A DNA stretch of 64,000 nucleotides, taken from contig NZ_NPML01000004.1 of the NCBI RefSeq assembly GCF_002252565.1, forward strand, positions 1 through 64,000, given 5' to 3'. Within the stretch, counting starts at the first letter, position 1. Each line of letters starts with the position of its first letter. Under the pieces are notes generated by a model that saw nothing but the letters and a program-made list of their open reading frames with translations, was not told where the DNA came from and ran no database searches. Positions 54,579 to 63,573 of this stretch are shown piece after piece. Source of the DNA: Petroclostridium xylanilyticum (GTDB lineage: Bacteria; Bacillota; Clostridia; SK-Y3). A program made the translations under genes and the position numbers.

Positions 54579-54717
54579 TTAAATATATAAGTTATTCTAT
54601 TACAGATTATGTTAAAACTCAATATTTGTTATTACAATAAGAAAATTACATAAAATATGGATATACTTGGTTTATTATGATATAATAAATCTACAATAAT
54701 TTTGGAGGTATATGGTT

Positions 54718-55044
54718 ATGGGACAAACTGTTGATGTTAATAGTGTAAAAAATGATATTGATAGAATTAAGGATCAAATTATTTCTCACTATGCTCCTTC
54801 AAAGATTATACTTTTTGGTTCACAAGCTAAAGGAACTGCTACAAGCAAAAGTGATATTGACTTATGTATAATTAAAGATACTGACAACAAGAAAGAATTG
54901 TTAACGGATATGTATCTAAATGTTGAAAGTAATAAGCCGTTTGATTTACTTCTTTATACAACCGATGAATGGTACGACTGTGTAAATGATACTACTAGTT
55001 TTGCATATCTAATTAATAAGAAAGGAATTACCATATATGGTTGA
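54718..55044 (+). CDS. MNT-type minimal nucleotidyltransferase (antitoxin-like)
   Basis: The 108-residue protein contains the pol-beta nucleotidyltransferase signature: GSQAKGTATSKSDIDL, with the two acidic metal ligands in SDIDL, and a third acidic residue in FDLLLY. The ATG at 54718 is 9 bp from GGAGG; an ATG at 54712 would be too near. It overlaps the HEPN gene by 8 bp. In MNT-HEPN pairs the nucleotidyltransferase modifies and silences the HEPN partner. It lies in the former skin-like segment, as a cargo gene. A TATAAT box lies at 54681-54686. Confidence 0.85.
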   Translation: MGQTVDVNSVKNDIDRIKDQIISHYAPSKIILFGSQAKGTATSKSDIDLCIIKDTDNKKELLTDMYLNVESNKPFDLLLYTTDEWYDCVNDTTSFAYLINKKGITIYG

Positions 55045-55420
55045 CAGCTCGAGATATGTTGATTGGCTTGAAAAAGCGCAAAGAGATATAAAATCAGCGA
55101 AAGTACTAAAGCAAAATGATTGTGGCAATGATGTAGTTGCATTTCATTGTCAGCAAGCTGTAGAGAAAGCCCTCAAAGGCTACTTGCTCAAAAAAACTGG
55201 ACAGATTGTCGAAGGACATAGTCTTATTTATTTGTGTAAGGAAGCATCAGGATATAACAGTGGTTTCAAAACAAAATTAAAAGATTGCGCCTTTGTTAAT
55301 CAATACTATATTGAGACACGTTATCCAGCGGATATACCTCTTATTGTATCAGATGAAGAAGCTGAAGAATGTATTGCTATTTCTGAAGACATCTATAAAA
55401 TTGTGAATGATAATATTTGA
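55037..55420 (+). CDS. HEPN-domain protein (toxin-like partner of MNT)
   Basis: The 127-residue all-helical protein has the HEPN_C (PF05168-like) pattern: WLEKAQRDIKSAKVL, then FHCQQAVEKALKGYL and ETRYPAD. The strict RxxxxH RNase motif typical of HepT is not evident, so catalytic activity is doubtful. It is translationally coupled to the MNT gene. The pair is a likely toxin-antitoxin or nucleotide-binding module. Confidence 0.83.
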   Translation: MVDSSRYVDWLEKAQRDIKSAKVLKQNDCGNDVVAFHCQQAVEKALKGYLLKKTGQIVEGHSLIYLCKEASGYNSGFKTKLKDCAFVNQYYIETRYPADIPLIVSDEEAEECIAISEDIYKIVNDNI

Positions 55421-55805: not shown

Positions 55806-56286
55806 TCAGCCAAAGTTTATTCTTAATATATAATCTAGATACTCTTCATCTAATAACGAATGTACTTTTCTTATTTTTAAACTTTTTTTCGGATATCTTG
55901 CTTCATCTTTCCTTACCATATTTAATGAAAGTCTTTTGAGCATCGCAAGGTTTTCAGGCGCTTTTCCTTTTCTGGTTTTGCAAGCGTCTTTACTAAAGGT
56001 TGCATCAAGAGACCAATGCATACTCTCAATTCCCCAGTGCTGCCTTACTGCTTTTGCATATTCTATTACAGAGTTTACGCTCCCAAAATGAAAAGCTTTT
56101 TCCTCTGTTTTATTTCCCTTCTCTTCAGTTCTCCTGACAACCATTCCAATACCATTCATCTTTTCCCATTCTTCTTTTGCATCCATCCATTTTATATCGG
56201 TAGAGTAGTAATATATTCTTTCCTCAATTCTGCCATGCCCCTTCTCAAAAGTCCTATAGGTTGTCAATAACCCCGTCCCCTTGGCA
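55433..56286. mobile_element. Segment bounded by 16-bp inverted repeats, with ISAs1 fragment
   Basis: TGTCAAGGGGACGGGG (55433-55448) is inverted at 56271-56286 (CCCCGTCCCCTTGGCA) with one mismatch. Between them lie about 260 bp without recognisable genes, a large stem-loop (55706-55783) and a 3' fragment of an ISAs1-type transposase. The right end touches the sigK repeat within about 6 bp. It is a degraded composite rather than a live element. Confidence 0.6.
55806..56270 (-). pseudogene. ISAs1-family transposase, 3' fragment
   Basis: About 155 residues correspond to the C-terminal part of ISAs1/H-repeat transposases: YYYSTDIKWMDAKEEW, QHWGIESMHWSLDATFSKD with the last acidic catalytic residue (E in GIES), and KAPENLAMLKRLSLNM. 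The N-terminal about 200 residues with the first DDE aspartates are missing; the open frame continues artificially into sigK upstream DNA. Non-functional. Confidence 0.87.
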
Positions 56287-56291
56287 CCCTT

Positions 56292-56554
56292 AAGATATGA
56301 AATTTTAGTTGAGCGTATACAGAAAAAATGAGACATAGGGACATATAATAAAAACATTGCTAGACATGCACACATTGAAATGAATTTTCATATATTTATA
56401 TGGAATCATTATTTCCGGAGGTGTCTTAGCAATGTTTTCAGTTTTCTTAACGGTTTTTTCAGTTACTCTAAAGTATATTTTCCTGCTAGTTTCCTATGTA
56501 TCAAATACAAATTCATTTCCTCAGCCTTTGTCAACTGAAGAAGAGCAGATGTAT
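56292..56554 (+). repeat. Right copy of the sigK promoter and 5' end
   Basis: Second member of the direct repeat described at 54163-54426. Here it continues without interruption into the full sigK gene. Confidence 0.93.
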
Positions 56555-57988: not shown

Positions 57989-58315
57989 ATCATAAGACCT
58001 CCAATTTTAAATGTTATATAAGCTGCAAAAAATATTCCTATTATTATCTCTGCAAAAGTTTTGTACTATTTGCTTATACGTAGTTCATTATAACATGTTC
58101 ATACTTATCTTTCAAAGAAATTTAATTTTTGCTTTGTTTATATATCAACAAAATTTATTAAAAGATTTTGATATAAATTGACAATACAAGACTAATCATA
58201 TAATATAAAATTCAATTTTAATAAACTATGTATAATACGCTCATTAATGAAAAAACAAATTACCAGCAGTGGTAGTTAGAATTTTATAAGCGCAATAGGA
58301 AAGTGAGAGATACAG
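57989..58315. promoter_or_regulatory. Divergent promoter region
   Basis: AT-rich gap of 327 bp. TTGACA (58178-58183) with TAATAT at 58201-58206 (17 bp) or TATAAT at 58199-58204 (15 bp) is the best promoter for the rightward gene. TATAAT also occurs at 58231-58236. No stable hairpin or hidden gene was found. Confidence 0.4.
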
Positions 58316-59371: not shown

Positions 59372-60406
59372 ATGAAGAATATCTATACAGTCCTAATTAT
59401 AGTTCTATTCATAATTTTTACATCTGCTTTCGCCTTTTCAATTTTTTATTTTCAAAAAAGTGATTTAACTCTTTCTGCTGACAGTATGCCAAAAGATAAT
59501 ACAAAAAGGCCGGAGTACCACTTTGCTATTATTGCCCAAAATACGGATGATCCCTTTTGGCAGTCTGTTAAGAAAGGAACCCTGGAAGCTGCTAGGGCAT
59601 TTAATGTGGCTGTTGAGTTTAATGGGCCACGTTTTACAAATATTGTTGAAGAACTTCAGTACTTGGATATTGCTATTGCGTCCAGGGTAGACGGGATAGC
59701 AACCCATGTCCTTGATGATAAACAATTTACTCCCCTTATAGACAAAGCAGTAAATATGAACATTCCCGTTGTCACCATTGAAACTGACGCAAAAACCAGT
59801 AAGCGGTCATCCTTTATTGGCACCAATAGCTTTAAATTGGGCGATGAAGGCGGCAAGCTAATAGCGGAAGCTGCCGGAGGAAAAGCCAAGGTTGCGGTGA
59901 TACTTAACAGCTATAGTGATGATGGAGAAAATATAGCACAGAATCTAAGGGTTGCCGGGTTTCGGGATGCCATTAAAAATTATCCCGAGATTGAGATCAA
60001 GACGGTGCAGTCATCCAGGATGGGGATTTTTAGTGCCGAAGAGGTTACCCAGGAAATTCTGAATAAATTTCCCGATGTTAATGCTATCTTTTGCACAAGT
60101 TCCAAGGATACTATCGGTGCTGCGCAGGTTATAGTAGATTTTAACAGGGTTGGAGATGTTACACTCATTGGATACAGCGATTTGAAGGAAGTGCTGCGCT
60201 ATGTTGAAAAAGGTGTTATCTATGGCACGGTAATAAGCAATCCCGTTAATATGGGGTATGAAAGCATTAAGGCTCTTGTAGAATTAAAAAAGAAAAAACG
60301 CACATCGTCTTATGTTGACACAGGGGTTAGTGTGGTGACTGGTAAAAATCTTGCGGAATACAACAAGATGATGGAAACAGAGAAAGGACAGGATCTTTTA
60401 AAATGA
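59372..60406 (+). CDS. Membrane-anchored periplasmic sugar-binding protein (sensor type)
   Basis: The 344-residue Peripla_BP_4 protein has an N-terminal uncleaved-looking anchor (about 5-28) and no lipobox Cys, then a ribose/xylose-type binding domain (HFAIIAQNTDDPFWQSVKKG start; later GVIYGTVISNPVNMGYESI). It overlaps the next gene by ATGA, so it is translated with the TM-AraC regulator and not with permeases. This suggests a sensing role, as for XylFII of Clostridium beijerinckii (analogy). Confidence 0.85.
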   Translation: MKNIYTVLIIVLFIIFTSAFAFSIFYFQKSDLTLSADSMPKDNTKRPEYHFAIIAQNTDDPFWQSVKKGTLEAARAFNVAVEFNGPRFTNIVEELQYLDIAIASRVDGIATHVLDDKQFTPLIDKAVNMNIPVVTIETDAKTSKRSSFIGTNSFKLGDEGGKLIAEAAGGKAKVAVILNSYSDDGENIAQNLRVAGFRDAIKNYPEIEIKTVQSSRMGIFSAEEVTQEILNKFPDVNAIFCTSSKDTIGAAQVIVDFNRVGDVTLIGYSDLKEVLRYVEKGVIYGTVISNPVNMGYESIKALVELKKKKRTSSYVDTGVSVVTGKNLAEYNKMMETEKGQDLLK

Positions 60407-62364
60407 GAAGGTTTTTACATAGACTATTTAGCACTAATAAAATAAGAAAAAAGATGATATTATATTTTTTTCTAACAACTTTCCTGATGAGTATCACCAG
60501 TCTATATACGTATTATAATGCCCGTATGTTTATGTTGAAGATGAATACCATGTTTATGAGTAATGTTTATCTCAATGAATTATATAGCGATGTCAGCAAA
60601 GCGGAAGGATATCTTGAAAATTTTCTCTCAACAAAGCACTCCGATAGTTTAAGAGAATACATACGATACAGTAACAATTTAAGGCAGAAGACAGAAAAAA
60701 TCCGCAAAGAAATTTCTAACATAGAGAGCCAATTATTATTAAAAGATATCGCTAATATGATTGATACATACTTAATTGAAGCAGATGCGGCTGTCAATGC
60801 GAAGAGAGGGCGGGATATTAACGAGTATATAACCCGTTATACTGAAGCTAATAAGATAGCCGGTTATATTAATTTATATATAAACCGTTTGAATACAAAA
60901 CAATTTGAGGAAAATACCGCCAGGTATCTGGTAATACTGGATAGACTCAATCTTATACAGCTTTTAAATATAATCATCATTGCGGATGTTGTTGTATTTA
61001 ATATTATTCTTATCCTATGGTTTACATTCAAAATAACAAAGCCCATTATAAGCTTATCACAAGCTGCTGATGAAATTTCAAAGGGAAATTTCGATGTCGA
61101 ACAGGTAGTTGTAAATGCCGAAGATGAAATCAGTGTTATGGCCGATGCGTTCAACCGTATGGCCTCAAGTATTAAGAATTATATTGATGAAATCAAAGGA
61201 AAAGATGACCACAGCAAAGAATTGGAAGTTTACAAAGGGATTTTTGAAATCAATGAAATGGGTGGATATATCATGACTGTAGAATTTGGAGAAGAAGATG
61301 ATTCGGGCAATATCGGCAACAAGATAGGATTAAGCGTAAAGAGTCAATCTTTTTATCCATATTTTAGGGATATTATTAAATGCCGGTGCAGGTGCCTGGT
61401 TGGTCCTATCATGTTAAACCGCATTGTTATATTTATACCTTCTGATTTTACGGGTGATGAATATTTTCAAAGACTGGAGGCTTTAAGCATAGGTGATTAT
61501 ATTTTGGATAAAATATCTGAAAAATTAGATGCAGATATATGCATTGGAATAGGTAGAAGCTATAAAGGTTTGGAAAATTTATCGTGCTCTTATAAAGAGT
61601 CTTTAAAAGCAATCAGGCATGCTAAAAGCAAAGAAACTGTACATATCATGGATGTACCGGTTGAAGGGAAAATAAATCCCGCATATCCGTTGTTAAAAGA
61701 AAAAGTACTGCTGGAAAAAGCTTATATTGGTGATGCTAGTGAATGTATTCAGGCTTTTGAATTTATCTTTGACTGGTTGGTTACAGAATATGGTAATTCG
61801 ATACAAAATATAAAAAATAAACTTATTGAACTGATGGTTTTACTTTACCGGCTGGCATGGGACTATGGTGCCGAAGAGAATGAATTTATAAACCGCCGCC
61901 ATTATCTTGATGAAATGCTGGAATTTGAAGAGCTTTCCAAGCTGAAAATATGGTGCAGGGAAAGAATTGAATATATAGTACGCAGTATCAGCAGCATAAG
62001 GGAAAAGAAAATAAATAGCTTGATACTGAAGGCCAGGGATTACATTGATAAGAATTTTAAAAGTGAGATTACCCTGGAGGACGTATCAAGGGAAGTAAAT
62101 GTTAGCCCCCATTATTTTAGCAGGCTTTTTAAAGAGGAAACCGGTGAAAACTTTATAGAATATCTAACATCGGTCAGGATTCAAAAAGCAAAAGAATTAC
62201 TTGAAAATGAATGCATAAGTGTTAAAGAAATATGCTATCAGGTAGGTTATGGTGACCCAAATTATTTTAGCAGAATATTTAAAAAGGTAGTTGGAATAAC
62301 GCCAACCGATTATAAAAGAATCATCGATTCTAATCCCTATAAAGAAGCTGTGCAAAATAAATGA
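60403..62364 (+). CDS. Membrane-bound TM-HAMP-AraC transcription regulator
   Basis: The 653-residue protein has TM1 (about 18-40), a helical extracellular segment (about 45-185), TM2 (about 187-210), a HAMP domain (about 210-262; KITKPIISLSQAADEISKGNF), a YesN-like middle part, and a C-terminal AraC pair (about 548-645; LEDVSREVNVSPHYFSRLF and VKEICYQVGYGDPNYFSRIF). No kinase or receiver domain is present, so signal passes from membrane to DNA-binding part in one chain. ATGA overlaps on both sides tie it to the two binding proteins. Confidence 0.88.
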   Translation: MRRFLHRLFSTNKIRKKMILYFFLTTFLMSITSLYTYYNARMFMLKMNTMFMSNVYLNELYSDVSKAEGYLENFLSTKHSDSLREYIRYSNNLRQKTEKIRKEISNIESQLLLKDIANMIDTYLIEADAAVNAKRGRDINEYITRYTEANKIAGYINLYINRLNTKQFEENTARYLVILDRLNLIQLLNIIIIADVVVFNIILILWFTFKITKPIISLSQAADEISKGNFDVEQVVVNAEDEISVMADAFNRMASSIKNYIDEIKGKDDHSKELEVYKGIFEINEMGGYIMTVEFGEEDDSGNIGNKIGLSVKSQSFYPYFRDIIKCRCRCLVGPIMLNRIVIFIPSDFTGDEYFQRLEALSIGDYILDKISEKLDADICIGIGRSYKGLENLSCSYKESLKAIRHAKSKETVHIMDVPVEGKINPAYPLLKEKVLLEKAYIGDASECIQAFEFIFDWLVTEYGNSIQNIKNKLIELMVLLYRLAWDYGAEENEFINRRHYLDEMLEFEELSKLKIWCRERIEYIVRSISSIREKKINSLILKARDYIDKNFKSEITLEDVSREVNVSPHYFSRLFKEETGENFIEYLTSVRIQKAKELLENECISVKEICYQVGYGDPNYFSRIFKKVVGITPTDYKRIIDSNPYKEAVQNK

Positions 62365-63467
62365 TAAAGGTGGGCAGGTTGATGGATTACAAAAAAAATA
62401 AACGAATCATTATGTTTCTCCTCATGCTTTTAAACCTTATTTTAATTAGTGGATGCCGTATTTCTCAAGATAAAGAAATAAATTATAACAAGGAAGATGC
62501 TACAGAGCGGAAAATCAAGATAGGATTTTCAATGGGGACTTTAAAGGAAGAACGCTGGCAAAGGGACAGGGATATTTTTGTAGCCAAGGCGAAAGAACTT
62601 GGAGCGGAGGTAATCGTCCAGAATGCGAACAATGATAGTAATGAGCAGATGAGCCAGGTGAAATATTTACTGGAGCAGGGTATTGATATTCTTGTCATTG
62701 TACCGCATGATGCGGATAAGGCTGCATCTATCGTGCAAATGGCAAAAAAGGAAGGTATAAAGGTAATTTCATACGACCGTCTTGTAAGAAACGCAAATGT
62801 AGATATGTACATATCCTTCGATAATGTTAAAGTTGGAGAATTGATGGCTGAACATCTTGTAAAAAGTGTACCTGCCGGTAATTATGTGATTATTAATGGT
62901 GCAAAAAATGATTACAATACGCATATGTTTAATGAGGGATATAAAAATGTGTTAAAACCTTATATTGATATGGGAAATATAGATATAATAGAAGAAATTT
63001 GGGCTGAGGACTGGAAAAGGGAAGATGCTTTTAAATGCGTAGAGAGGACATTGCAGAATGGTTATAAAATAGATGGAATAATAGCCGCAAATGACAGCCT
63101 CGCGGAAGCAGTAATTGAGGCACTTGCCGAGCGGAGGCTGGCAGGCAGGATTCCTGTGGTTGGCCATGACGCTGACTTGGCCGGGTGTCAAAGAGTGGCT
63201 GAAGGCACTCAGCTAATGACTATATATAAACCAATTAACAGGATCGCTCAAATATCCGCAGAAATGGCTATAAAGATGGCAAAGGGTGAAGAAATAAAAG
63301 CTAACAGTAGTATTAATGATGGAAAGTACAGCGTTCCTTATTATAAGATACAGTCTGTACCCGTTATCCGGGAAAATTTAATAAATACGGTTATATATGA
63401 TGGTTTTCACCGGCTGGATGACGTTTTTAGGAATGTTCCAAAATCCCAATGGCCTGTAATAAAATAA
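62361..63467 (+). CDS. Xylose-binding-type lipoprotein (XylF-like)
   Basis: The 368-residue Peripla_BP_4 protein resembles XylF: KIGFSMGTLKEERWQRD, SYDRLVRNANVDMYISFDN and VVGHDADLAGCQ. It has a lipobox (ILISGC). The ATG at 62361 overlaps the regulator stop; an ATG at 62382 with GGTGGGCAGG upstream gives a cleaner signal peptide and is equally likely. It belongs to the sensing operon; the next gene encodes another XylF-type protein. Confidence 0.87.
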   Translation: MIKVGRLMDYKKNKRIIMFLLMLLNLILISGCRISQDKEINYNKEDATERKIKIGFSMGTLKEERWQRDRDIFVAKAKELGAEVIVQNANNDSNEQMSQVKYLLEQGIDILVIVPHDADKAASIVQMAKKEGIKVISYDRLVRNANVDMYISFDNVKVGELMAEHLVKSVPAGNYVIINGAKNDYNTHMFNEGYKNVLKPYIDMGNIDIIEEIWAEDWKREDAFKCVERTLQNGYKIDGIIAANDSLAEAVIEALAERRLAGRIPVVGHDADLAGCQRVAEGTQLMTIYKPINRIAQISAEMAIKMAKGEEIKANSSINDGKYSVPYYKIQSVPVIRENLINTVIYDGFHRLDDVFRNVPKSQWPVIK

Positions 63468-63573
63468 AGTCTTACTATTTTGTACATTAATATTATGCTA
63501 TGACTTTCTATAATCGAAGTAAATCTAATAATTTAAGATAGACAATCATAAATACCTCTAGAGACAGAGTAAA

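Follow-up and report, generated by a model that had tools for sequence, protein, structure and literature searches.

How can a sugar-sensing operon control its transporter when its regulatory gene encodes neither a histidine kinase nor a receiver? The question arises from three forward-strand genes near the end of a stretch of 64,000 nucleotides (nt) of Petroclostridium xylanilyticum DNA (contig NZ_NPML01000004.1, positions 1 to 64,000; below, the window). They encode a sugar-binding protein (SBP1, 344 amino acids, aa), a membrane regulator (653 aa) and a second sugar-binding protein (SBP2, 368 aa), and are followed by the genes of an ATP-binding cassette (ABC) transporter. The answer we favour is that the regulator, a fusion of a LytS-type sensor with a YesN-type output, works as a membrane-bound AraC regulator gated by a sugar-binding protein (SBP) without phosphotransfer; we give this a probability of about 0.58.

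Origin of the fused regulator

Pfam searches found in the regulator a HAMP domain (residues 210-258), a GGDEF-like domain (GGDEF_2, 330-405) and an AraC-type DNA-binding domain (HTH_18/AraC, 562-639), with zero matches to His_kinase, HATPase_c or Response_reg. Of the two transmembrane segments, the second (TM2) was called by hydropathy, while the first (TM1) falls below the threshold. The first-pass annotation of this DNA had described the middle gene in just these terms, as membrane segments, HAMP and AraC with no kinase or receiver; the GGDEF-like region between HAMP and AraC, which derives from a response regulator, was absent from it.

We searched ~896 related genomes, among which the same genus is not represented. 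Every good match to the regulator was split in two, with residues ~1-270 aligned to a frame of ~510 aa and residues ~260-640 to a neighbouring frame of ~540 aa. The first frame carries HAMP, His_kinase and HATPase_c, the second Response_reg, GGDEF_2 and AraC (Pfam), and the three domains that have no match in the fused regulator sit between the parts common to both forms. The sequence left of the junction aligns with the kinases and stops with their HAMP output helix (SIKNYIDEIK). Right of the junction it aligns with the regulators, beginning near their residue 157 (DDHSKELEVYKGI...GGYIMTVEFGE), directly after the receiver and its linker helix. The absent stretch is the catalytic half of the kinase together with the receiver. 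Given the assembly, the gene is almost certainly an in-frame chimera in which residues up to ~265 come from the operon's own LytS-type kinase and those from ~268 onwards from its YesN-type response regulator, and the deletion is very probably real in nature. It had been proposed that a single membrane-tethered regulator replaced LytS and YesN in this operon. The single chain is indeed there; the idea of a different, substituting regulator gives way to LytS and YesN themselves, fused with the middle deleted.

Adjacent pairs of a kinase half and a regulator half were found 65 times in 65 genomes, with a spacing of 982 to 1453 nt. In the annotated split loci the gene order is SBP1-kinase-regulator-SBP2, in many followed by SBP3-ATPase-permease, and the order in the window is the same minus the kinase and the receiver. 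For example, the closest syntenic relative (genome G293, locus L084) shows identities of 52% for SBP1, 52% for the sensor, 55% for the output part and 58% for SBP2, and 64%, 71% and 62% for the transporter proteins SBP3, ATPase and permease. One of the 65 pairs is a paralogue in the genome of the window itself (contig C19, 492-499 kb, L048), where SBP1-kinase-regulator-SBP3-ATPase-permease is intact and SBP2 is missing; the paralogue shares 39% identity with the fused regulator in the output part.

An 835-aa frame in G406 that resembled a second fusion is a normal response regulator lengthened at the 5' end by out-of-frame sequence, and the copy in G738 is not a fusion but a frameshifted, broken split system. 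In viral contigs and GTDB genome contigs, the search for fused homologues returned only distant AraC domains.

Some of the loci read in the comparison have peculiarities of their own. In G738 (L122, C1:1966000-1977000) the split system lies in several frames, with kinase, regulator and neighbours interrupted, due to either decay or sequencing errors. Three further loci (L085, L099 and L100, in G159:C49, G213:C82 and G286:C77) hold close YesN-type regulators, about 49-50% identical in the output part, for which a matching kinase sensor was not seen in the stretch read; these may be orphans or have other partners.

The sensor half and its likely partner

A profile of the sensor half had significant matches in the PDB solely to the LytS chains 5xsd_L and 5xsj_L (2e-7), a match to the four-helix LytS ectodomain. 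SBP1 has the type-4 periplasmic-binding fold, and its best PDB match is 6gq0 (3e-60), a sugar-binding protein that we take to be AraP of Geobacillus stearothermophilus; XylFII follows (5xss, 3e-41; also 5xsj and 5xsd). The N-terminus of SBP1 is a single, uncleaved-looking hydrophobic segment without a lipobox. For SBP2 we found Peripla_BP_4 (2e-58, Pfam), E. coli XylF (3m9w, 5e-91) and the NCBIfam XylF model PRK10355 (4e-104, under its equivalog cut-off), as well as a lipobox-like LISGC. Two proposals of the first-pass annotation, that the flanking genes encode anchored sugar-binding proteins and that the system resembles XylFII-LytS-YesN, are borne out by these matches.

XylFII contacts helices H3 and H4 of the four-helix module of LytS (PMC9769921). 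Since the sensor profile matches the ectodomain that XylFII binds, SBP1 probably docks on residues ~39-184 of the fused regulator. By homology, xylose is a plausible ligand.

Conservation of the fused regulator

A site counted as conserved when 85% or more of the kinase sensors (28 sites) or of the regulator outputs (45 sites) kept it. The fused regulator has none of the 28 sensor sites and none of the 45 output sites changed; the other sequences, each left out in turn, showed 0-10 departures in the sensor and 0-13 in the output. The terminal branch of the fused regulator is 0.17 in one half, compared to 0.54 and 0.57 for the homologs in G002 and G293, and 0.30 in the other half, compared to 0.49 and 0.46. 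SBP1 and SBP2 on either side have branch lengths in keeping with these, and the branch of the fused regulator shows no acceleration. An old remnant would have decayed, and we therefore reject the idea that the gene is one.

A candidate operator upstream of the transporter genes

The transporter-gene promoters of 13 split operons, with the window excluded, served to derive an 18-base motif. Its score was 130.6, compared to 102-108 for shuffled controls. In the window the motif points to the site CATAAATACCTCTAGAGA, a putative operator whose score was reached by none of 500 shuffles and which ranks 2 of the 127,966 18-mers. In leave-one-out runs, the locus's own site was ranked first in seven of the 13 training loci; the ranks were poor in a few loci with a weak motif (C19, G012, G031 and G063). 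Across the 3.86-Mb genome, the pattern WTAAWTNNNTCYAGAGA has a single exact match, at 63547-63564. As this pattern was drawn up with the window site in view, the blind evidence is that of the shuffles and ranks. The AraC domain of the fused regulator is proposed to bind this site.

A stretch shared upstream of SBP1, TCTAGAGG, was discounted for its overlap with the ribosome-binding site.

Proposed mode of action

We propose that an ancestral xylFII-lytS-yesN-xylF-ABC operon underwent an in-frame deletion running from a point in the kinase just past HAMP to a point in the regulator just past the receiver and linker helix. The HAMP output helix would then take the place of the receiver-linker helix and run straight into the GGDEF-like and AraC parts. 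SBP1 carrying its sugar, probably a pentose, would dock on the four-helix ectodomain, and the change would be relayed via TM2 and HAMP to alter the dimer geometry of the AraC pair. While still membrane-bound, the protein would bring its AraC domains onto the putative operator and activate SBP3-ATPase-permease. Phosphate transfer would play no part; in the split systems HAMP switches the kinase. What the sequences show is the domain content, the chimeric origin, the setting of the operon, the unchanged conserved residues and the candidate operator; the docking of SBP1 and its ligand, the binding to DNA, the direction of control and function without phosphotransfer are inferred. We lean towards the fused protein being a sugar-gated regulator. 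For the fuller proposal, that a single in-frame deletion converted an SBP-gated two-component system into a one-component regulator, naturally and with function, with HAMP driving AraC directly and both operator and transporter kept, we see even odds.

Relation to known systems

The closest described system is XylFII-LytS/YesN-XylFGH of Clostridium beijerinckii (PMC7017829), which likewise has a binding-protein partner, a four-helix LytS ectodomain, a YesN-type AraC output and a xylose-type ABC transporter downstream. There, however, LytS and YesN are separate and exchange phosphate. The operon in the window shares with this three-component system an anchored XylFII-type binding protein encoded together with the sensor, the LytS-type ectodomain and the YesN-type GGDEF-like and AraC output. 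The fused regulator lacks two defining parts, the kinase catalytic domains and the receiver, and we therefore class it outside that system: it derives from it and by architecture is a transmembrane one-component regulator, having membrane segments (TM1 below the hydropathy threshold) and a DNA-binding domain in one chain.

One-component regulators that act from the membrane are well known (PMC10269533), and the one-chain membrane AraC architecture is in itself common. At least five dCache AraC regulators in the same genome (e.g., C19:475794 and C22:2964) also combine an extracytoplasmic domain, GGDEF_2 and AraC in one chain without a receiver. The fused regulator has a four-helix ectodomain of the SBP-docking type and a kinase HAMP; in these other regulators the ectodomain is dCache, Pfam detects no HAMP and the GGDEF_2 match is mostly full-length. 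Two of the dCache-AraC genes, C22:2964-4382 and C19:637381-638799, appear to be near-identical copies (equal scores); the latter lies near a contig end, and the pair may reflect a recent duplication or an assembly overlap.

CuaDSR of Ruminiclostridium cellulolyticum also uses a sugar SBP, a HAMP kinase and a YesN/AraC regulator to control an ABC transporter, but as three separate proteins with kinase and receiver present (PMC10384115). In the hybrid two-component systems of Bacteroides a single membrane protein likewise unites sensor and AraC output but, in contrast to the fused regulator, still contains kinase and receiver (PMC10269533). A comparable fusion is Rsp of Neisseria gonorrhoeae, formed from the nps/npa (PilS/PilR-type) pair, in which the membrane sensor half of a kinase continues into the DNA-binding half of the partner regulator (PMC10269533, PMC6528607). 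Rsp differs in its protein families, has no binding protein and is regarded as a remnant, whereas the fused regulator keeps all conserved sites and a candidate operator.

We found no published conversion of an SBP-coupled LytS/YesN pair into one chain in a search that covered few subscription journals. Two-component systems are usually discussed as descending from one-component regulators. The reverse step is rarely reported, and Rsp, the named case, is regarded as a remnant (PMC10269533, PMC6528607). This locus retains its operon with the partner binding protein, as well as the conserved residues and a likely operator; therefore, kinase-free gating of an AraC activator by HAMP can be tested directly. 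If the proposal is true, sugar sensors could be reduced to a single chain, which would be useful for the design of biosensors and for understanding YesN-type regulators.

Alternative explanations

Several points limit the case for a working regulator. The GGDEF-like region lacks the first helix present in response regulators: the match to the GGDEF_2 profile covers only positions 51-115, compared to 36-115 in the G002 response regulator and 4/5-115 in four of the six cache-type one-chain regulators. At the splice, moving the loop by a single residue decides whether the helix phase is ~80 degrees off or in register. The single-sequence AlphaFold model of the fused protein was too poor for use (predicted local distance difference test score 50.6), so that the coupling between sensor and output could not be modelled. 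Rsp seemingly does not control its ancestral target pilE (PMC6528607). No second fused copy was seen in the ~896 genomes, a set in which the genus is otherwise absent, so that the fusion may be young or old. Moreover, a very recent loss-of-function deletion would likewise leave residues and operator intact. Such a deletion would have left a non-signalling remnant, inactive or locked, with the transporter constitutive or otherwise controlled. Its restriction to one genome agrees with this, a random deletion keeps the frame one third of the time, and Rsp was named a remnant in the title of its original description (PMC6528607, PMC10269533). Yet the gene has no frameshift or stop, all conserved sites are kept, the branch is short, and the overlap with SBP1 and the operator persist; these features exclude an old remnant and not a recent one, and we consider a recent inactivation rather unlikely.

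It is very unlikely that only the assembly or the sequenced clone has the ~1.2-kb deletion and that the natural pair is whole: we have a single assembly in 41 contigs and nothing similar elsewhere, but the junction is clean and in frame, falls between domains and lies within a 247.8-kb contig. The first-pass annotation had looked to a kinase/receiver pair outside the window as a possible carrier of the signal. A search of the genome with the G002 kinase and receiver turned up no relocated cognate of either; it matched best (50-51%) the intact C19 paralogue, and we reject a move of either part within the genome. That paralogue could in principle cross-regulate, with the transporter run by its SBP, kinase and YesN-type regulator and the fused gene silent or secondary. 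The shared gene order and similar output part speak for such control; on the other hand, with the C19 site omitted from the motif, it came no higher than 20th within its locus, and the AraC domain of the fused regulator is fully conserved, which makes this explanation improbable. Proteolytic release of the regulator when sugar is sensed, put forward in the first-pass annotation, we hold to be highly improbable, as many membrane-bound regulators work unreleased (PMC10269533); no protease gene was noticed beside the operon among the genes read.

Features of the locus and its surroundings

Coordinates of the genes, domains and the candidate operator are given in Table 1; the contig was read past the end of the window in a stretch starting at 58001 (L044).

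Table 1. Genes, protein parts and candidate operator of the locus
Feature	Position	Strand	Evidence or remark
SBP1, sugar-binding protein, membrane-anchored, XylFII/AraP-like, proposed signal input	59372..60406	+	Peripla_BP_4 3e-52 (Pfam), PDB matches, first gene in homologous split operons
Fused regulator, 653 aa: LytS-type sensor half and YesN-type output half	60403..62364	+	
Sensor part (residues ~15-209): TM1, four-helix extracytoplasmic domain, TM2	60445..61029	+	54% identity to G002 histidine kinase sensor; LytS ectodomain profile match
HAMP domain (residues 210-258)	61030..61176	+	Pfam PF00672 2.4e-10
Fusion junction (residues ~265-268, K-G-K-D)	61195..61206	+	Alignment to 9 split histidine kinase and response regulator pairs
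GGDEF-like (GGDEF_2) region (residues 268-405)	61204..61617	+	PF17853 1.1e-6
AraC-type double helix-turn-helix (residues 562-639)	62086..62319	+	HTH_18 5e-24
SBP2, XylF-like lipoprotein, start probably 62382	62361..63467	+	PRK10355 4e-104 (below its cut-off), 3m9w 5e-91, lipobox-like LISGC
Putative operator CATAAATACCTCTAGAGA	63547-63564	+	76 bp upstream of SBP3 start codon (63641); motif from split operons
SBP3, ChvE/XylF-like transporter binding protein, likely regulated	63641..64735 (window ends 64000)	+	
ABC ATPase, likely regulated	64823-66340, beyond window		After SBP3
Permease, likely regulated	66321-67574, beyond window		After ABC ATPase

ATGA overlaps had been noted at both gene junctions. 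The one between SBP1 and the fused regulator is a true overlap (60403-60406). The other requires that SBP2 starts at 62361; an alternative ATG at 62382 has a good ribosome-binding site, AAAGGTGG, in front and fits the N-termini of relatives better, and is probably the true start.

Upstream of the operon, at 54712-55420 (+), a gene for a nucleotidyltransferase (Polbeta/NTP_transf_2) and one for a HEPN protein, both small, overlap and form a typical MNT-HEPN toxin-antitoxin pair. A frame at 55806-56375 (-), 3 kb upstream of the operon, resembles a C-terminal fragment of a transposase, with no Pfam match at 1e-3. Beyond the window, the transporter operon is followed by a hemerythrin gene, behind which a mobile or conjugative element begins; genes for a relaxase (PF03432) and DUF3991/Toprim proteins were seen there at ~69.8-78 kb of the contig (C4; L044:11801-19959).

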